Positions 46,501-64,000 of a DNA stretch of 64,000 bases are shown here, in pieces. The notes beneath the pieces were generated by a model that was not told the origin of the DNA, ran no database searches, and worked only from the letters and a program-made list of their open reading frames with translations. The stretch spans positions 124,001-188,000 of the forward strand of contig JAVXUO010002682.1 of NCBI GenBank assembly GCA_033065855.1, read 5' to 3'. The first letter of the stretch is position 1; every line of letters starts with the position of its first letter. Both the position numbers and the translations under genes were made by a program. The stretch is from Escallonia rubra. Taxonomy: Eukaryota; Streptophyta; Magnoliopsida; Escalloniales; Escalloniaceae.

Positions 46501-48244
46501 AATCTTTTTTGGACACTGTACACTTTACCCCTCATCTTGCAACCAAACCCTCCAACCCAACCTTGTTACCGAAGACACTAAACACAATATAAAAAGACCG
46601 ACACACCCACCCACTCAACCCCACCCTACCATAAGTATCCAATGCAAATAGCTGACAAACCAATCACATGTTAAGAAGGAAAATTTCCTAGCCTGTTAGT
46701 ATACTTTCAACATGCATACAGCATCCCAGTTAAGAGTTGTGCTTTAGCTCCACTCTGGAATAAGCTCCCTTCAGATCTTACTGTACTTTTAGCTGCATTT
46801 CAATAACATCACAGCCAAGTACTGCATCTTTGGCAAGACTGCTGGATGATAAATTCTCAGGGTTGAGAACTTCTATTTGCTTGAGATTATTAATGAACCC
46901 AACAGATTGTGTAATCAAGCGTTCACAAATTTAAGTCTGCAAATAGATTTCCAAGTCCAGTCTCAGTCCTTGTGAATGTCAGAGGTCAACCCATAATTGA
47001 ATTAGATACTCCACCCAGGCTACATCATCTTTCAGCAAGAACCTAGGTTCATACTAATATGGTGAATGTCAAAGCCTTGAATTTGGATACAGAGCAGGTT
47101 CATCACACATGGTTATGAATCCTCTTCATATACGGATTGCCAGCAGTAGGAGAAAGATTGTACAATCCACAGGAAGCAGATTTCGATAGAGAGAATGGAC
47201 AAGCTTTGGTAGTCCGAGAAAGAAGAGTATTTTTTTTTTTTGGTCAAAAAAGAAGAGTATATCCCACAGATCTTCTTGCTTAGTGGGACTGTAGGAGCAC
47301 ATCCATAGAAGATATAAAAGAGCGGACAAAGGAAAAAGGTGACGGGGAGGAAAAGTATCACCAAAGTCTCAGAGAAGAAGAGAAAAATGGGACCTATTAC
47401 CAAAGACTCAAACTTAAAGCTAACCAGGCTGCAACTTGGTTTGGCTATAACTAGCAGCACTGCGGCTACTATTTCCAGCCTGTTATTAGTAGTCGGATTG
47501 TGAAGCACTTCCATGGAATAAATCTTGTACCTGCCCTAAGATAACGCCACATATATTGTGTACCCTCCACCACCACAAATGCTCAATACGCCCATGACAC
47601 AACCCCCATCATATTGAACTCACGTCACGACTCACAACCTTCAGCTCTAAACCTCGAAGTTAAAGCCCACTACTCCAGTCTCCAGCTATTCTGAATCATA
47701 GCTGATAGTTGACTGCTTCGCTGTTGGATCACTAAAGCACACATGGACATACACATTCACGCATCAATGCAGAAAAGATCAAGAAGCTAAAATACTCCTC
47801 CATTCCATTGGATTTTTCCCATTTCACTTTTTGCAAATTCCTAGTATCAAAACATGTAAGCGTTGACTTTTTCATTAATTTTATTCTACCTTGACTTGCC
47901 AAAGGATACTTCAATTTGATTTTTACACGACACAAGTAGCGAAATCTATCTTAGGACTCTGCAAATAGATAAAAGGGGAAAAAGCCAACAGAACGGATGG
48001 AGAATAAAACAAGGGAAGGGAAATACCTTTGGAGTTGTAATATTGGTTCTCAATGTCAACGTCCTGCTCCTCGGCCTCCTCTTCCGAGTACTCGAATCCA
48101 TAATCCTCCATATCAGCATCTACAAATCCATAATCCAACCAATTATTAGTATGTGTATGTGTGCGTGTGGCGATCAAAATGGCCGATGATGCGTTAAGGA
48201 AGGAATACGAAATGAAGAATAAAAATTGTAATACCGGAAGCCAT
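34581..48244 (-). CDS. CSN2: COP9 signalosome subunit 2 (12 exons, 439 aa)
   Basis: CSN2 is a PCI-domain scaffold subunit of the COP9 signalosome, the complex that removes Nedd8 from cullin-RING ligases (FUS12 in Arabidopsis; nuclear, needed for light-regulated development). Exons on the minus strand: 48235-48244, 48027-48119, 45964-46042, 45343-45583, 45182-45256, 44979-45113, 41292-41479, 40934-41002, 40754-40844, 40528-40662, 34842-34954, 34581-34671. All introns are GT-AG and phases join without a stop. The start reads [18 protein letters not shown] (acidic N-terminus), then [70 protein letters not shown] and [20 protein letters not shown] (helical-repeat to PCI parts) follow. The C-terminal helix is [18 protein letters not shown]. 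The length equals the usual plant CSN2. His234 stands where Arg is expected before ECGGKMH. Intron 10 is 5.6 kb and intron 6 is 3.5 kb. Confidence 0.96.
35335..35353. repeat. C(19) homopolymer in CSN2 intron 10
   Basis: An uninterrupted run of 19 C. Similar runs occur at 7156-7171 (G) and 59938-59952 (C). The exact length is likely to vary between individuals and to be error-prone in assembly. Confidence 0.8.
35765..36192 (-). repeat. Dispersed 427-bp segment (copy 2) in CSN2 intron 10
   Basis: Partner of 15630-16056. Its minus-strand frame keeps [20 protein letters not shown] and [20 protein letters not shown] but ends in a stop soon after. Further upstream on the minus strand, 36115-36484 has other open frames in different phases that I do not recognise. 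It lies in the same strand sense as CSN2 but is spliced out with the intron. Confidence 0.6.
37616..37954 (+). mobile_element. ~330-bp MITE family, copy A (CSN2 intron 10)
   Basis: The left end ATGTTACATGGACT and the right end GAGTCCATGTAAGAT are inverted. The interior has AAGTACCCGTGTCAGACACT near the left and TCGTACCGAGTCCATG at the right. It shares structure along its whole length with copies at 38750-39080 (opposite orientation) and 56981-57310. No coding capacity; superfamily not certain. Confidence 0.75.
38159..38651. mobile_element. Tourist-like (PIF/Harbinger) MITE, 493 bp
   Basis: The ends GGCTCTGTTTGACAAC and GTCAAACAAGGCC are inverted and flanked by TAA on both sides (38156-38158 and 38652-38654). 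Between A/T-rich arms sits a GC-rich core at 38318-38480 made of GGCGGTGGCCG-type repeats. This gives open frames in several phases on both strands; these are compositional. It lies in CSN2 intron 10 between two copies of the 330-bp MITE. Confidence 0.75.
38750..39080 (-). mobile_element. ~330-bp MITE family, copy B (CSN2 intron 10)
   Basis: Inverted relative to copy A. It starts CTATGTTACATGGATTCGGT and ends GACTCCATGTAACACAG, and near its right end carries CATGGGTACTTCACGCATTT, the complement of the left part of copies A and C. Copies A and B are about 800 bp apart in opposite orientation and could pair in the CSN2 pre-mRNA. Confidence 0.75.
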
Positions 48245-49300
48245 GATCTATGCGTTGATGATGTGCTGATTAGAGCTTGTTTTTGGGAGCGTCGCCGGAG
48301 CTTCCTCAGTTAGGGTTCGTGCTTTGTGTGCATATACGCCCCAGTGAAGCTCGTATGTTGATTAGTGAAGACAGGATTCCTTCTCGAAACATTTGCGTAA
48401 TGTCCTTCACTTGTGAAGGTTTTGCATTTATGCCCCACAAAAGACAATGTTTAATTGCCTGAACTCCCTCACCACCTTGCAAAGAGTAGGAGGAAATAAA
48501 AATTAGCTGCAATGCCTATTATTAATTAATAATTAATTAATTAATGTTGTTGATTATTTGACGATTGTTAATTATAGTTATCATTTTATGGAGGGAACAC
48601 GGCCTCTTGTTTAAACTTAGGTTGCAGCCCAAAAAATTTTGCACGATTAGGGCAAACTCCTTTGACAAACGAAAATCGATTAAGAGGAATCCACGTACTT
48701 TCAAGGAAATATAGATAATTTGGCAACGAGAGAACACCATTTTGTTATCAAGGATCCATTGAAGACGAAAACAATCCCAAATTGTTCACCAAGATAAAAG
48801 TAATAGCAATTTTGGCATATCTCGCTTGGGTACCGTGAACGTGCACTTTTATTATGTATTCATATTAAGTTGATAATTTGGCTTATTGTGAAAACACTAC
48901 CGCCACAATTGTACCAAATGTCACCATCTACTTCAACAAATGCCTAAATTGAGAATTCAATCAAATGGGCCCGCATAAGCAGCATGGGGCCACAACCATT
49001 TATGGGATTTAAAGCTCATATGTCTTCCAATTTGGATATTTCATGTACAGCCCAATTCCAAAACTTTGCTCCTTGAAGTCTCCATTAGCCCTACGTTTAT
49101 CCATAGTAACAATAGCAGCAGGCACTGGGGCAGCATGCCTTCTTTGCTTACATCGGCAAGAATTACCGCCGATGGCTCCACGACGCATGGGACCGGGCGA
49201 AGAAGATGCCCCCGGGGGTTCACTATCACCCCAACGCCCCCGAACCAGCTTCAAAACAACATTTCAGTTTCTGTGATTACATTCCTGGACTAAAACTGTG
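48245..49300. other. Upstream region of CSN2
   Basis: The 5' flank of the minus-strand CSN2 gene, including its 5' UTR and presumed promoter. An ATTAATTA-type repeat lies at 48519-48544. I cannot assign a TATA box. A moderately GC-rich patch at 49040-49250 gives open frames on both strands without a known domain; a real gene there is not supported. Confidence 0.4.
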
Positions 49301-49490
49301 TAATTAAAAACTTGGCGCGGGAAAAACACCGAAACACCCCTCGCGGGGTGGCAAATTACCGAAATGCCCCTGGCATCAGGAAAAATCTCAAAGGTGCCTC
49401 GAAATTCTACTTTACGCTTCGTGAGTTCATCATTGGCCTAAAAAGTACTTTACGGATTTTTCGCGCAAAAATCGCGAACCGGTGTCCGGG

Positions 49491-50126
49491 GCGAGCGCTG
49501 AAAGGGCCGTTCGGGCAAAAAAATAGCAAACGGCTCCGGAATGGCGCGAAATCCTGGGGAATGGAACTTCCCAACATCCTAGGGTACTCGTAAAAGTTTC
49601 GCGCGAAATCGCGCTAGCTTGGTATTTTAAATTAGACTGCGAAGGTACACGGTTCCCCGTAGCAGTTAGCCCCTCTACAGTGCTTGGAAAAATCTGAAAT
49701 TTTTACCTGATACAGATGCTTTCAGAATAACTAGGGTCTCTTTTTTACACTTTGGCCAAATCACGCTCTAGCTATTTTTTATAAATCCGTGAAAAAGCTG
49801 TCTAATTAAAGGGCGAGCGCTGAAAGGGCCGTTCGGGCAAAAAAATAGCAAACGGCTCCGGAATGGCGCGAAATCCTGGGGAATGGAACTTCCCAACATC
49901 CTAGGGTACTCGTAAAAGTTTCGCGCGAAATCGCGCTAGCTTGGTATTTTAAATTAGACTGCAAAGGTACACGGTTCCCCGTATCAGTTAGCCCCTCTAC
50001 AGTGCTTGAAAAAATCTGAATTTTTTACCTGATACAGATGCTTTCAGAATAACTAGGGTCTCTTTTTTGTACTTTGGCAAAATCTCGCTCTAGCTATTTT
50101 TTATAAATCCGTGAAAAATCTGTCTA
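49491..50126 (+). repeat. 322-bp tandem repeat, two units, CpG-rich
   Basis: Unit 1 (49491-49812) and unit 2 (49813 to about 50126) both start GCGAGCGCTGAAAGGGCCGT and run in parallel almost identically to GATACAGATGCTTTCAGAAT and TATAAATCCGTGAAAAA. The sequence is rich in CGCG and palindromic bits such as TTCGCGCGAAATCGCG, quite unlike the AT-rich surroundings. No coding domain. It appears to be the left part of a larger non-coding element extending to about 51490. Confidence 0.85.
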
Positions 50127-50545
50127 TAAATGTAATGTAATACGCTATTTTGAATCGCTATAAATGTAATACGCTAAGTGTAATACGCTGACTTGATGTA
50201 TAAGGAAATTCAAAATACTTACTTGTTGTGACTTGATGTATTTGAAGAAAAATCTACCGATCTTCTAGCGATTATTCACCGATCTTCTTCTAGCGCTAAA
50301 ATTTTTTGGTTTGTGGAGAAAAAATGCGGAGCAGAGCAGAAATGTGGAGAAGAATGGTTGGGGGGAGGGGATTATAAATAGAGAAGAAAAAGGAAGAGAG
50401 AAGAAAAAAGAGGGTTGGTGTCTGCAGAAAAAACCCGTGAGTGGTGGCAGAAAAAAAATTTTGGCGGGAACCACTGCAAAAAAGGACAGTCACGGGGAGG
50501 AAGGACAGAGTCACGGGGAGCCATCAGGCGCGTGGGGGGAGGGGC

Positions 50546-51046
50546 GCCACGTGGCAGAAGGAGAGGGCAACCCGCGGGGCCCCTTCACGCGGTTGGGCCA
50601 CGTGGCAGGAGCGGGGGAGGCCACGTGGCACCGCCATCGTACCAACAGGCGCAATTTCCCTTGTTTGGCCACGTGGCAGCGCGTGGCAGGCGCGTGGAGG
50701 CCACGCGGCAACAACCGGCGTCCCTTCACGCGGTTGGGCCACGTGGCAGACGCTGAAGAGGCCACGTGGCACCAACCGGCGCCCCTTCACGCGGTTGGGC
50801 CACGTGGCAGGCGCGGAGGAGGCCACGTGGCACCGCCATCTTACCAACAGGCGCACCTTCCCGCGTTTGGCCACGTGGCAGGCGCGTGGTGGCCACGTGG
50901 CAGGCGCGTGTAGGCCACGCGGCAACAACTGGCGTCCCTTCACGCGGTTGGGCCACGTGGCAGACGCTGAGGAGGCCACGTGGCACCAACCGGCGTCCCT
51001 TCACGCGGTTGGGCCACGTGGCAGGCGCGGATGATGCCACGTGGCA
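50546..51046. repeat. G-box array: 14 perfect GCCACGTGGC palindromes
   Basis: Fourteen copies of the 10-bp palindrome GCCACGTGGC, plus two CCACGCGGCA variants, occur in 500 bp. They sit inside a higher-order repeat whose typical unit is CGGTTGGGCCACGTGGCAG, then a short spacer, AGGCCACGTGGCACC and a CCGGCGYCCCTTCACG link. CACGTG with these flanks is the core G-box bound by plant bZIP and bHLH factors. Long open frames on both strands (150-200 codons) are produced by the repeat and encode no recognised protein. Whether it acts as a binding array or is simply transposon sequence cannot be told from the sequence. Confidence 0.9.
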
Positions 51047-51131
51047 GCCTTGGCTCGAATTTTTTTTTTTTTGTGTCAGCCAATCAAAAAATTTGAAAAT
51101 TTTTGTGTGGGAGCCACCCAAAATAAAAGCC

Positions 51132-51405
51132 ACCAACCGCTTCTTTTATATGCGGTTGGTTGTTTAAAAAATTGTTAAAAAAAAAGGGGTTACCAACCGC
51201 TTCTAAGAGAAGCGGTTGGGCAAAAAAAAATTTGTCCCAACCGCGTATAAGAGAAGCGGTTGGGTGGAGTGGTTTTTTATGGTGGGCCCATGTCAAAAAA
51301 ATAATCATGCCCAACCGCTTCTCTTACATGCGGTTGGGCTTTTTGTGGTGGGGCCCACGAGAAAATGACACAGTACCCAACCGCTTGTCTTACAAGCGGT
51401 TGGGT
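51132..51405. repeat. Five successive short hairpins with a common GCGGTTGG stem
   Basis: Palindromes lie at 51132-51160, 51193-51219, 51236-51264, 51309-51339 and 51375-51405. All share a CCAACCGC arm and its complement GCGGTTGG, with loops of 3-13 nt. The best two are perfect over 12 bp (51193-51204 with 51208-51219) and 14 bp (51375-51388 with 51392-51405). Loop sequences differ while arms are kept, and spacers contain AAAAAATTTG and GGGCCCA pieces. The array follows the G-box array directly and ends beside the (AT) tract. Confidence 0.9.
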
Positions 51406-51446
51406 GGAGAAATTTTTTTTCTCCACCGGTGGGTGTGGATCGGGCC

Positions 51447-51448
<2 letters not shown>

Positions 51449-51489
<41 letters not shown>
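51449..51489. repeat. (AT)20 microsatellite
   Basis: Uninterrupted AT dinucleotides bounding the right edge of the CpG-rich region. The foldback at 10368 is also bounded by a TA tract, which may reflect insertion into TA repeats. Confidence 0.9.
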
Positions 51490-51762: not shown

Positions 51763-52661
51763 TAGGGATGGCAATAGGACAATTCGGTGCATATCTTATG
51801 AAATTCGTAACCCCTTGGTGAAACCCCACTCCGCCCTGCTAGCGGGTTATATGAGTGCAATACCATCCCTGATCCTAAGCTAATTTAAGAAACTCGACCC
51901 CGCCCCGATCCGCCTAATCTTTTTACCCCTAAAAACCAGAGCACCGCGGCACCCTCTACCCACAGCTACAGACGACAATCACCCACTATTTCCTAGCTAT
52001 AGCCCCTGATAAGATCGTTCGGATTCGCTTGATAAGGTATAATGACAATCACATGATTGATGAGACGAGCATGCTAATGAGGCTTGGAATGAAAACTTTT
52101 ACCCACCACCACCAAATGAAAAGAGCAAATTCAGCAAAAAAAAAAAAAAAAGAAAAAGGAAAGAGCGAAGTTCTTTCCAATCTGGAAAATCGCCAATCAA
52201 ACCTGCAGTGCTGATGGTGGAGTGGTGGTGACAGAGGATGGTGGGCAATTATATGGTGATAATGGTGGACGTTTATGTGGTGATGACAACATAGGTGGTG
52301 GTGACAGTGTTTGGTCGCGGTGGAGGTGGAGGTGGTGGTTACGGTGTTTGGTCGACTGTGAGTTGGTGGTGACGGTGGTGGTGAGGTGGAGGTTGTTTGT
52401 GGTTGGCCTCTTACAGTGAGACGGAGAGAAGAAAAAGGTAGCGACGCTGGGTAGAGTCGGCAGAGAGAAGGAGAAAATGTAGGGTTTGGTGAGACAATTA
52501 TATATCCTAGGATGGATGACTGAGATTCGCTGCGGGCTCAGGGGTGAAAATGTAAATACAGCATACCCACCCCATAACCCGCTCAAAGCCAATATAACCG
52601 GCTCCTGCTGGGTTGAGGCAGGTCGGAGGTCTGCTAGGTGCAGATCTAATTGCCATCCCTA
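51763..52661. mobile_element. hAT-like non-autonomous element, 899 bp, inside a LINE
   Basis: The termini TAGGGATGGCAAT and ATTGCCATCCCTA are perfect inverted repeats. They are flanked by CCTACTGC (51755-51762) and CCTGTTGC (52662-52669), an 8-bp duplication with two differences. The interior includes a GGT-rich stretch (52210-52400) and no transposase. The LINE coding frame resumes at the right-hand duplication, and a compatible short frame (QCLDGLL) precedes the left one. Confidence 0.8.
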
Positions 52662-55600
52662 CCTGTTGCAGGCTAAAGAGGTGTATTGGGCCCAGCGATC
52701 TAAGAACCCTTGGGTAGAGTTGGGGGATCGAAACAAATTTTTTTCCCCCACATCCTCTTTGATTCGTAGAAGAAAGAACAAAGTGGTTTCCTTGAAATCT
52801 GATGCAATCACATAAACCCATGAAGAGGACGTTAGGTTGTTTCGTTAATTACTTTAAACGAATTTTTACGCCATTGCCGGTATCATGGAATCTAGGAATT
52901 ATGGAGGGGATATGCGTGTTTGGTCTCTTTAAAAGGGCTCTAAGACCAACTCAGGGGCAGGAGTTGGTAATTCCTTTCTCGGTTCCAGAGGTAAGGAAGG
53001 TAGCCTATTGGTAATTCCTTTCTTTGTTACAGAGGTAAGGAAGGTAGCCTTTCAGATTGGGCCCCTTCCAGGCTTCTGGCCTGGATGGAATTCACCGATG
53101 CTAGAATCTCATGCGCTCTGATATTACTGATGTAGTCTTATCCTTCCTCAACTCAGGTTATACGCTTAGGGAAGTAAATCGTACATTTCTTACTCATTCG
53201 CAAGAACGAATTTCTAGAATGCCAGAGGATTTTAGGCCAATTAGTTTATGTAATGTGATATACAAAATAATATCCAAGGTGATGATGAATCCTATGCAGC
53301 CATTGATGTCGTAGCTCATCTCTCCTTGCCAAAATGCGTTTGTGCCTAGGCAGAAATTATCAGATAATGTTGTTCTGGACCAGGAACTGACTGACTATAT
53401 TCGAAGGCAGAAAAGGGGAAAACTGTTTGTGTTGCTCTCAAATTAAATATAAGCAAAGCATATGATCAACTTCGATGGGATTTCATAAAGGCGGTTTTGG
53501 ATAGACTAGGGTTTCCTGAGCGACGAGTGCATTTAATTATGCAGTGTGTAACAACGGTGTCTTATTCCATCTTGGTCAATGGGACCCATGATGGAGCATT
53601 TCCAGCCTTCTTATGTAATAAGACAAGGTGACCCATAATCTCCGTATTTGTTTATTTTGTGCCCAAAAATATTAACCACTGCTTTGGCACAGGGTGAGCT
53701 AAAAGTTGAGTTGGTAGGCATCAGAGTTGGGCGACACTCTCCACCGGTATCACATCTGATGTGTGCCGAAGATATTTATCTATTTTTCTGTTTAAATAAG
53801 GAGTATAAAGCACATATTGCGACAGTCAAGGAAATTCTTATGATATATAACAAGTCATCTGGATAAAAAATTAATTGGGATAAGTCGGCTCTTACTCTAA
53901 GTCCAAATGTGAACCCTGAAGTTCTATCTCACGTGGATGCTGCCTTTCGCTTTACGTCTCAGGATTCCTTAGGTAAATATTTGGGAAATCAGTTGGATAT
54001 TTCCATTAACAAAAGGGACATTTGTCATAGCTTGGTACAAAAGGTTCAAGATAGATGTAGATCGTGGATGTGACTGTTGCTTAACAAGGCGGGTAGAGCA
54101 ACGTTAATTCAGTCAGTGTTATCTTCTTTGTTCATTCATTATATGATGGTCTTTAAATTTCCACGGTACCTTTGCAAGAAGATAGATGAGATTCTAGCTT
54201 GATTATGGTGGGCTGGAGATATATCTCATTGCTCAATTCATTGGGTGGCTTGGCCTATTGTTTGTCTACCTAAACACCTGGGTGGACTTAGATTTAGGGA
54301 TACCAGGTCTTTTAATGAGGCGCTATTAGCTAAATAAGCTTGGCGGATCCGGCAACATCTGGATACTTTACTTGCTAAAGTATTATGTGGTCGTTATTGA
54401 GGTTAAATGTGTCAGACATGCGTGCATGTCTTGGGTCTGGTAAAGTATTTTAGCTGGTCGGCGGATGTTTAAACAAGGGGTTCAATGGCGAATTGGCAAT
54501 GGTGAATCAATCTCACTTTGGAACGATTGCTGGCTTCCCCAATTGCCGCCTCCATTGCTTAGTTCTTATCGAACACTTGCTAATGGCCATATGAGAGATT
54601 CTGACTTGATTAAGCCAGACACCTTTACGTGGGATCGGGGTCGAGTCTTCCAAAAGTTCCCATCATCTGTTGCTCATCAAATCTTTGGGTTACTTCATGC
54701 CTGTGATGGACGACAAGACATTCCTAACTGGCCTCACAGGACTGATGGAAAATTCTCGGTCACGACAGCCTATCGGATGGTTCAGTCGCTTAATTGCGGC
54801 ACTACTCACATTGATACCTGTCTGAGGCCAGCTTTGTGACGTAAAATCACCAAAAATCTAACTTTCCTATGGCAATTTATCAGGCAGAGACTTCCACTTC
54901 GCACGGAGTTAATTAAACGTGGTTGTGGTGCTTCGGACAGTTTCTCAAACAACTGAGCACTTATTCTTTCAATGTTATTGTGTGCAACCCATTTAGGCAA
55001 GTATTAAAGTTACACATCCAGGGCATGTGACTTCTATAGCCTCGGTGAGATCCTCGGTGGCTGGGGCGGCCAATTTTGCAGCAACCGAAACTCTTAGTAA
55101 ACTGCCTCTGGATAGCGATTGCATTGAGGGTTATCTGGTATGATCGTAATCATGCTATTTTCGGTGAGGATGTTTTTCATTCGCAGCGCTTAGTATATCA
55201 CTTGCATGAGCTGGTCAGATTGATTGCTAATACAACTCGGTTTCGACGACGATTCAGTGAAACACTGTCAAATTTGATGTCCCCTACTCCATAGGGCGAG
55301 CGTCCTTGCTGTTTGACTTTGCTACTGTTAATTAGTTAAATTTATAGCTCGACATGTATTTGTGCAGATCACAGTGCAGAGTGAGTTTTTTTTTTTTTTT
55401 TTTTGATAATAAGAGAATTGCATTGATAATTTAAAGATACACAATCGCTCGGTTGTAGAGCTTGCAGACATTATCGGTCACGACATTTCCGTGACTCAGT
55501 ATACATGACCATAAAGGCCGACACTAACAAACACCTAATAAATTTATACACATTACAATTGAATTAAAGCAGAGCATATCCTACACTTTAACACAACTTA

Positions 55601-62400: not shown

Positions 62401-62777
62401 ATGTGGGGTGAGGTGGATGAAGGGGATGGCGTGGAGTGGTGGGAGTCAGAAGAGGTGTTGGTGTTGGAGGGGTTAATGGGAGGTGATGTGAAGGAAATTT
62501 GTTATGTTTGGAAGTTAGAAGATTTGGTGGGAAGTGAAGAATAAGGTGACGGTAGAGTTTTTGAGAGAGAGTTTTGGGGAGGTGGGCCTTTGTGTAGTGG
62601 AGGAGATAAAGGGTGAGAGAAATTTAAAAGGTGGCAGAAGATTGAGTGGTGGAGATAAGATAGGAAAGTTTGAATTTGAAGGAAAAGGGTATGCGGGTCT
62701 TGGATAAGGGGACAAAGGTGATGAGGAGTTAGAGTGAAAAGAGGGAGTGGGCCGTGTATGAGGGGATAGATGGCAGG

Positions 62778-63023
62778 ATACATGGGAGTTAGATGGAAAT
62801 GAGGAGAGGGATGAAGTGAGTGGTGGGGCCGGTTGGTAAGATAAAGAATTTTGTAGGTGGGTATTAGGGTGAGGAATATTTGACGGTGTGGTTAGCAAGG
62901 ATACATGGGAGTTAGATGGAAATGAGGAGAGGGATGAAGTGAGTGGTGGGGCCGGTTGGTAAGATAAAGAATTTTGTAGGTGGGTATTAGGGTGAGGAAT
63001 ATTTGACGGTGTGGTTAGCAAGG
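62778..63023 (-). repeat. Perfect 123-bp tandem duplication in the Copia linker
   Basis: 62778-62900 and 62901-63023 appear identical base for base, starting ATACATGGGAGTTAGATGGA and ending GTTAGCAAGG. As 123 is 41 codons, the Pro/Ser-rich linker frame repeats a 41-residue block containing LLTTPSNIPHPNTHLQNSLS. Identity in an otherwise mutated element indicates a recent event. Confidence 0.9.
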
Positions 63024-64000
63024 CATGTAATGTGGGTAAGGGAAGAATGGTTTTTTAAGGAAGAATATTTTCGTCGAAAATGACATGGAGGGTAATGTAG
63101 GTTCTGCCATTGAGGGGGTCAAGGCACCGATATCCCTTGTGAAGGGTATTGTAGCCCAAAAATATACCCAGTTTGGAACGAAAATCAAGTTTGTGCTTGA
63201 CATAAGGTCACAAGTGTGCGCAACATAGACAATCAAAAACTTTGAGACATGTAAAGTCTGGCTTAGCGTGAAATAGGTTTTCAAGGGGACATAAATTCCG
63301 GATAACGGGGGATGGAAGACGATTAGTGAGAGACACGACAGTGGTGAAGGCTTCATCCCAGTATTTGGGAGGTAGGTGAGCATGAGCAAGCATGGAAAGG
63401 CCTTTTTCCACAATATGACGGTGCTTGTGTTCTGCAACACCATTTTGTTCATGAGTATGGAGGCACGAAACCGGTGGAAAATACCGTTTTTACTACAAGC
63501 TGTTTGGAGCGGGCGGTATTTGCCACCCCAATCAGATTGAAGGGTTTTGATAGAATTGCTGGTTAAGTTCTCCACTAGCTTCTTAAATTGAATGAAAACG
63601 TTCATAATATCCAACTTTAATTTGAGAGGAAAAATCCATGTGTAACGACTAAAATCATCAATGAAATGAACATAGTAGCGATAGCCTCGATGAGACACAA
63701 CAGAGGATGGACCCCAAAGGTCACTGTAAATTAATCCCAAAGGTGATGAAGAGATTACATGAGAAAATTCAAAAGGAAGCTTATGACTTTTACCAAGACA
63801 ACATGCCTCACAAGTCATAGCATCACATTTATTTGATGCAGTAGGAAGTGAAAACTAATGAACTACTTGAAAGACAACATGGGACGGTGGATGGCCGGGG
63901 CGTTGATGGCAGAGACATAGGGGGGCACGAACACCAAGGACAGAGAAGATGCAGCCGATGGCAAAAGCTGATAGAGGCCATTTTTGAGGTGACCTTGTGT

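Follow-up and report, generated by a model that had tools for sequence, protein, structure and literature searches.

Arrays of G-box palindromes in the long arms of a (TA)n-targeting Mutator-like transposon family of Escallonia rubra

Introduction

MuTAnT, a (TA)n-targeting family of Mutator-like elements (MULEs) in Medicago truncatula, is described as having terminal inverted repeats (TIRs) of 47 bp on average and an autonomous copy of 4.9 kb, and its putative autonomous member has a Jittery-like mudrA transposase (PMC4486113). The family reported here is, like MuTAnT, a MULE flanked by (TA)n with a terminus starting with GGGG, but it departs from that description (PMC4486113) in its arms of up to 3 kb, a median distance of 12.2 kb between paired termini, its G-box arrays, and its genes for a plant mobile domain (PMD) protein and an Ulp1-type peptidase. 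Microsatellite targeting is also shared with the SaTar/AgS-MULE elements of guayule and rice, including Micron (PMC5907723). According to the same source, the target site duplication is short in some members that are not inserted in a microsatellite (10 bp in the guayule case), and full-length AgS-MULE1 is a 5.3-kb element with 400-bp TIRs; the consulted part of that account mentions no G-box array (PMC5907723).

Dense arrays of a short motif have been reported from VANDAL elements, where VANC21 binds YAGTATTAY arrays in tandem repeats (PMC5735166). VANDAL21 and Hiun are, as described, MULEs with dense short-motif tandem arrays in fast-changing non-coding DNA, as is the present family (PMC5735166, PMC10398659), but the motif is a different one and the DUF1985 match found here lies below the cut-off. 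A MULE survey gives the TIRs of the non-TIR group as absent or short and degenerate, and TIRs in general as 14–500 bp in its text and up to 640 bp in a table; it places the FAR1 domain in Jittery-group transposases and the PMD, often antisense, in MUDR-group elements (PMC6446971). Set against these groups, the present family has FAR1 and PMD together, and with kilobase arms. The light-signalling factors FHY3/FAR1 are described as transposase-derived proteins that bind CACGCGC; they carry the same FAR1 DNA-binding domain family as the element transposase reported here, but are domesticated host genes (PMC8599713). A search of literature titles and abstract openings found no description of G-box arrays at MULE ends, which is not proof of their absence from print.

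Results

A dense G-box array with higher-order repeat structure

The window, that is, the whole 64-kb stretch of DNA analysed, contains 14 exact matches to the palindrome GCCACGTGGC, all of them inside 50546–51045. The inner octamer CCACGTGG was observed 14 times; 100 dinucleotide shuffles averaged 0.31 occurrences and never exceeded 3, so that none reached 14. Together with reversed-pattern controls in the genome, these shuffles rule out a chance origin of the array, in agreement with the preliminary description, which had counted 14 perfect palindromes in 500 bp and placed them beyond chance. The slots are mostly paired at 22–23 bp, and longer spacings of 38 or 48 bp separate the pairs. The higher-order tandem repeat that had also been described was recovered: its two copies, roughly 202 bp and 214 bp long, share 90% identity over an alignment of 270 bp and are composed of units of about 61 bp; the unit CGGTTGGGCCACGTGGCAG quoted earlier was found in the window. 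The coordinates of all features are given in Table 1.

A 27-nt module with the form of an imperfect palindrome, CCAACCG-N13-CGGTTGG, occurs in seven strict copies in the window, in array linkers as well as in hairpins outside the array. As the module recurs in both places with identical arms and loop length, we regard the array and the hairpins as one structure. The original delimitation of the feature (50546..51046) thus holds for the array but covers only a part of the feature, which spans 49206–51448.

Table 1. Positions of the features in the window
Feature	Position	Strand	Basis or remark
CSN2 5' end	47925..48244	-	Translation, ATG inferred at 48244; outside the element
Truncated right arm of giant Mutator-like transposon, subfamily I	49206..51448	+	Homology to arms of other copies
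Inner part of the arm, aligning across subfamilies I–IV	49206..49488	+	BLAST to 14 subfamily II–IV loci, 77–98%
322-bp tandem repeat inside the arm, two copies	49489..50126	+	TRF 2.0 copies, 97%; matches in other copies
TATA-like TATAAATAG	50373..50381	+	Reads towards the array and the element end; putative function, assigned from sequence
G-box array	50546..51045	.	16 slots, 14 perfect GCCACGTGGC; adjacent spacings mostly 22–23, 38, 48 bp
Variant slot GCCACGCGGC	50700..50709	.	Mismatch-tolerant slot count
27-nt module CCAACCG-N13-CGGTTGG	50772..50798	.	In array linker; second strict linker copy 50986–51012
Variant slot GCCACGCGGC	50914..50923	.	Single change identical to that at 50700, equivalent place in the duplicated higher-order unit
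Five terminal hairpins with 27-nt module	51133..51403	.	Starts 51133, 51193, 51237, 51311, 51377
Fixed terminus	51423..51448	-	Read inward on the minus strand = GGGGCCCGATCCACACCCACCGGTGG
(TA)20 microsatellite, outer side	51449..51489	.	Presumed insertion target; many other copies have (TA)n flanks

The window copy is a truncated arm

The long matches of the window arm to the arms of other copies are about 90% identical. The outer end of the arm lies at 51448 and its inner break at 49205/49206. All 13 junctions compared in other copies run on past 49206, whereas the homology of the window stops there; the window copy is therefore a single truncated arm of 2243 bp, without the coding part. Several other copies contain more units of the 322-bp repeat than the two of the window, and the 0.4-kb stretch between these repeats and the array is likewise homologous to other copies. 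The array is almost certainly part of a MULE arm.

A protein-like sequence, YIGKNYRRWLHDAWDRAKK, adjoins the truncated end of the transposon exactly (49149–49205) and may be a gene fragment or filler. On the same side of the arm lies CSN2, identified by one downstream exon that matches COP9 signalosome subunit 2 chains. With the start codon placed at 48244, the array is 2.3 kb upstream of the gene, the distance previously given. Since the array belongs to a genome-wide family, this proximity is most likely a coincidence, as had been allowed for from the outset, and is probably incidental.

Other elements were seen on the outer side. A short hAT-like element (51763–52661) has the ends TAGGGATGGCAAT...ATTGCCATCCCTA, and its flanking 8-mers CCTACTGC/CCTGTTGC agree at six of eight positions. 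Frames resembling a degenerate LINE reverse transcriptase, identified only by eye, occupy 52670–55320, and the hAT-like element seems to interrupt them upstream; the single frame that was tested (54447–54836) had no Pfam match. The region 63015–63854 (-) gave a sub-threshold match to an integrase core (rve; 30.3 bits, cut-off 32.6) that fits a degenerate copia-type element, and a 123-bp tandem duplication, 100% identical as reported, lies at 62775–63023.

A genome-wide family with fixed termini

The assembly from which the window comes (566 Mb, 3222 contigs) was searched for the termini and for the array patterns. The element terminus had 296 + 321 = 617 matches with at most three mismatches, and its reversed control 0 + 0; a repeat family with fixed ends, which the preliminary description had suggested looking for, is thus present. 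Among the 100 exact termini listed, 24 inward-facing adjacent pairs lay 3.3–15.2 kb apart (median 12.2 kb), and one close pair had a different arrangement. The pattern GGGCCACGTGGCAG had 571 + 489 matches by strand against 1 + 1 for the reversed control, and many clusters among the places listed were inverted pairs.

The fetched pairs share a fixed outer end, GGGGCCCGATCCACACCCACCGGTGG, which varies only slightly and in most cases follows (TA)n. The family has terminal inverted repeats as expected of a MULE, seen in its fixed ends and in the inverted arms of locus L017 (1030–4026 and 5945–8884), which are 97.2% identical; arms reach up to 3 kb. Most of the printed termini adjoin (TA)n, with exceptions that include L017, L018, and L055/L056. 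L017, which lies outside a pure microsatellite, has the 9-bp sequence AATAAATAA on both flanks, within the 8–11 bp range of target site duplications. Ten further pairs were compared: in eight the two flanking 9-mers are identical, but all of these lie in (TA)n, a context in which identity implies only a duplication of odd length, and two pairs lack a duplication. At L027 (~1950–2080), an adjacent element ends in the same (TA)n tract; in its hairpin, CCAATCGC...GCGATTGG replaces CCAACCG...CGGTTGG, both arms being altered together, as if the palindrome rather than its letters were kept.

The extended G-box GCCACGTGGCA had 2250 + 2068 matches by strand against 125 + 122 for the reversed control, a count in which the fully palindromic TGCCACGTGGCA scores on both strands. 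Every multi-site cluster among the first 100 matches listed (C10, C24, C25, C27, C39, C79, C97, C98, and C99) matched the MULE clade, so that in this sample such arrays are not a general feature of transposons. Two patterns had no match in viral contigs, and bacterial genomes gave three single 19-mer matches, about the two that simple arithmetic predicts.

Coding content of the family

The C194 element contains, between its two arms, a 780-residue frame (L022:566-2905(-)) with a MULE transposase domain (PF10551, E = 9.6e-33). The same frame has a FAR1 domain at its N-terminus (42.6 bits, cut-off 28.1; E = 1e-10) and a SWIM finger (30.7 bits, cut-off 19.6), the combination expected, by domain content, of a Jittery-group transposase. 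Separate ORFs of this element encode a plant mobile domain (E = 4e-46) and an Ulp1-type peptidase C48 (E = 2e-14); by position, they run towards the transposase gene, tail to tail. The PMD ORF also matches DUF1985 with 29.8 bits, below the Pfam cut-off of 35.1, and PMD is its best match. The TIRs of VANDAL/VANC elements are absent or short and degenerate, whereas those of this family measure kilobases.

A CACTA element, the first idea suggested by the subterminal repeats, was considered as well. No CACTA terminus was recognised by eye, and this reading was replaced in view of the fixed GGGGCCC end, the 9-bp duplication, and the MULE transposase. The family is a MULE of the known (TA)n-targeting type with unusually long and elaborate arms. 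Of the three readings put forward at first, namely titration of factors, an enhancer, or the subterminal array of an unrecognised transposon, the last has strong support in the fixed termini, the inverted arms, the encoded transposase, and the 9-bp duplication in one copy.

The palindrome is conserved while the surrounding DNA changes

The per-site mismatch to a reference unit was determined in 34 arms of subfamily I, using 25- and 23-nt unit windows picked by their total mismatch to that unit, a choice by which very diverged copies of either part can hide. In the 77 distinct A units it amounted to 0.027 for the palindrome and 0.338 for the linker; in the 45 distinct B windows, which include a few non-array units, the values were 0.056 and 0.287, and in all 230 B windows 0.076 and 0.175. 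In the window alone, the palindrome of the A units had no mismatch and the linker 0.238. The four 38-bp B units of the window count against a general rule, as their palindrome (0.067) is no better kept than their linker (0.060).

The outer 0.6–1.0 kb of 45 arms from four subfamilies (34 arms of I, five of II, four of III, and two of IV) was compared for shared k-mers, the termini having been found by search patterns and the subfamilies assigned per locus by the analyst. Low-complexity sequence aside, no 10- or 11-mer was shared by half or more of the arms of every subfamily unless it overlapped GCCACGTGGCAGGC; here the two arms of subfamily IV belong to one element, so that "half" means one arm, and the sample leaves out the arms of L016, L026, L028, L029, L030, L033, L035, and L037 and some second arms. 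Between subfamilies I and III, the transposases are 86% identical, the PMD ORFs 84%, and the peptidase ORFs 70%, and the inner arm parts (49206–49488 and the 322-bp repeat) align at 76–98% across subfamilies. The window array and its terminal hairpins had no match in the subfamily III loci and only a 33-bp match in IV. As judged from these alignments, the outer kilobase is exchanged between subfamilies and the palindromes are kept. The number of perfect palindromes per arm is 8–16 in subfamily I (34 arms), 2–3 in III, and 1–2 in IV.

Conserved across arms in which linkers and outer flanks vary, the palindrome behaves like a site that selection maintains at the level of the element. Against this, the left arm of L027 has no CACGTG in 1 kb (one of the 45 arms). 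The 23-bp spacing, the commonest in subfamilies I and II, is never found in III and IV, where neighbours are at least 31 bp apart. The FHY3/FAR1 site CACGCGC was tried as a common denominator of the arms and rejected, being absent from the arms of III and IV and from four of the five arms of II, and common only in I.

A second FAR1 lineage has the same palindrome near its ends

Three FAR1-domain ORFs (81.7 bits each, cut-off 28.1) at C1767, C1947, and C3026 define a further lineage, here called V, which was picked because three ORFs of equal length were listed. Its copies are about 99% identical (G000:C1767, C1947, C3026; L069–L071, L074–L078). The termini start with GAATAAACTTTCGC and are unrelated to those of the window family; the inverted repeats match over 231–363 bp within the fetched pieces. 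A 9-bp duplication is perfect in C3026 (TAACTAATA), agrees at eight of nine positions in C1947, and is lacking in C1767. The right-flank 9-mer of C1767 equals that of C3026 and its left one differs; one copy may be rearranged or chimeric. On account of the inverted repeats and the 9-bp duplication we call the lineage MULE-like. Local alignment of its FAR1 domain with that of the window family scored 57; 300 shuffles averaged 27 and reached at most 56, so that the similarity is only distant.

At all six ends of lineage V, GCCACGTGGC lies 48–49 bp from the end and a second CACGTG follows 23 bp further on; two of the ends have a third CACGTG at position 100. The chance expectation for the palindrome in 120 bp of this composition is 1.2e-4. 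Ten other high-scoring FAR1 loci (L059–L068), not delimited by element ends, contained eight CACGTG in 32.7 kb, which is the chance level. The alignment of L072 with L073 is confined to some 226 bp at the end on the FAR1 side; the two reveal no element ends and have zero and one CACGTG, respectively. L079–L082 are two duplicated pairs with homology over nearly the whole overlap, in which neither element ends nor CACGTG were found; L079 and L080 have one CACGCGC-type site each. As these other FAR1 loci are without usable ends or at chance level, lineage V represents one independent case.

Discussion

The retention of the palindrome amid changing DNA suggests a candidate protein-binding site, perhaps for the element's own enzyme. 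According to our proposal, GCCACGTGGC, in many cases accompanied by a second CACGTG at a distance of 23 bp, would serve as the binding site of a protein that the element needs, and the most likely binder would be the element's own FAR1-domain transposase. Such binding could serve synapsis and cutting, autoregulation, or both, and tandem duplication may have expanded an original site pair into the 8–16 sites per arm of subfamily I. That the arrays are expanded protein-binding sites kept by element-level selection, most likely for this transposase, is a reading that we hold with about even confidence. Two points favour the transposase: the sites have a subterminal position in both lineages, and the domesticated relatives FHY3/FAR1 bind CACGCGC, a heptamer that differs by one step from the CACGCGG found in the variant slots and nearly matches CACG[TC]G. 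Several observations speak against this reading, namely the B units of the window, the wider spacings in subfamilies III and IV, the L027 arm that lacks CACGTG, the frequent occurrence of CACGCGC in arms of subfamily I only, and the chance level of CACGTG at the ten other FAR1 loci.

The main rival to transposase binding is the recruitment of host bZIP/bHLH factors (HY5, GBF, ABF, PIF) to high-affinity sites, the array acting as an enhancer in the arm that drives the element's genes. GCCACGTGGC is an optimal bZIP G-box, and since the extended palindrome is a textbook high-affinity bZIP site, binding by host proteins predicts the same conservation. The observed/expected CpG ratio is also consistent with this, being 0.95 in the array and 1.27 in the repeat region at 49285–50130, compared with 0.68 in the whole window, and the TATA-like TATAAATAG lies beside the array. 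However, this TATA-like sequence reads outward, away from the element's genes, and the restriction of multi-site clusters to the MULE clade among the first 100 GCCACGTGGCA matches listed also argues against host recruitment, which we consider possible but rather unlikely.

Alternatively, the gene set with PMD and Ulp1-type peptidase might encode a VANC-like protein whose binding to the array would lift silencing, in the manner of VANC21. The dense short-motif tandem arrays in fast-changing non-coding MULE DNA do resemble VANC targets as described (PMC5735166), and the PMD ORF has its weak DUF1985 match (29.8 bits). The latter is below the cut-off of 35.1, however, and PMD matches better. Moreover, VANC motifs differ between related families, whereas the palindrome discussed here recurs in four subfamilies and in lineage V. 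CpG decay was tried as a sign of low methylation in the arms. The ratio of CpG to other transitions was about 0–7 in arm segments, 7–12 in the transposase coding region and its flanks, and 3 in the PMD coding region; these values are mixed and non-independent, so that they give a hint only and favour low arm methylation at best weakly. Overall, an anti-silencing role of the array appears improbable.

It is quite unlikely that the arm simply grew by slippage as a passive minisatellite whose palindromes have no role. The preliminary description had named an ordinary expanded minisatellite with no binding in DAP-seq as the finding that would remove a regulatory reading, and a minisatellite is partly what we see: units and higher-order units are duplicated, their number expands and contracts between arms, and the B units of the window show no better retention of the palindrome than of the linker. 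As a full account it fails, since the palindrome is conserved above the linkers and across subfamilies. The parts of the unit do not diverge alike over the 34 arms, palindromes are retained where the outer arms are otherwise unalignable, and the palindrome recurs at the ends of lineage V. Finally, it is very unlikely that the array is retained near CSN2 to act as an enhancer, or as a decoy for factors of light signalling, a possibility that draws on its position 2.3 kb upstream of the ATG. The array belongs to a family whose termini number in the hundreds, and nothing marks the window copy as selected, its 14 sites falling inside the family range of 8–16 (34 subfamily I arms).

Returning to transposase binding, a broader version of it is more tentative, and we regard it as possible rather than probable. 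FAR1-class MULE transposases may in general recognise the G-box palindrome; the cis-code of light signalling (CACGTG for HY5/PIF, CACGCGC for FHY3/FAR1) would then overlap with the code by which transposon ends are bound, the site preference of FHY3/FAR1 would have been inherited from terminal binding, and giant MULEs would be spreading 8–16 perfect G-boxes per arm.

Whatever binds them, the genome is rich in extended G-boxes, many of which lie in mobile arms, and this matters for G-box surveys, for the titration of transcription factors, and for new enhancers in the vicinity of genes. In addition, the family offers a natural experiment in which the outer ends of a transposon are replaced and one 10-bp motif persists. 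The finding would become important if FAR1-type transposases were shown to read the G-box. Should the palindromes prove to be sites of the transposase, a comparison between the domesticated factors and living transposases of the FAR1 type would directly test where the DNA-binding preference of FHY3/FAR1 comes from.
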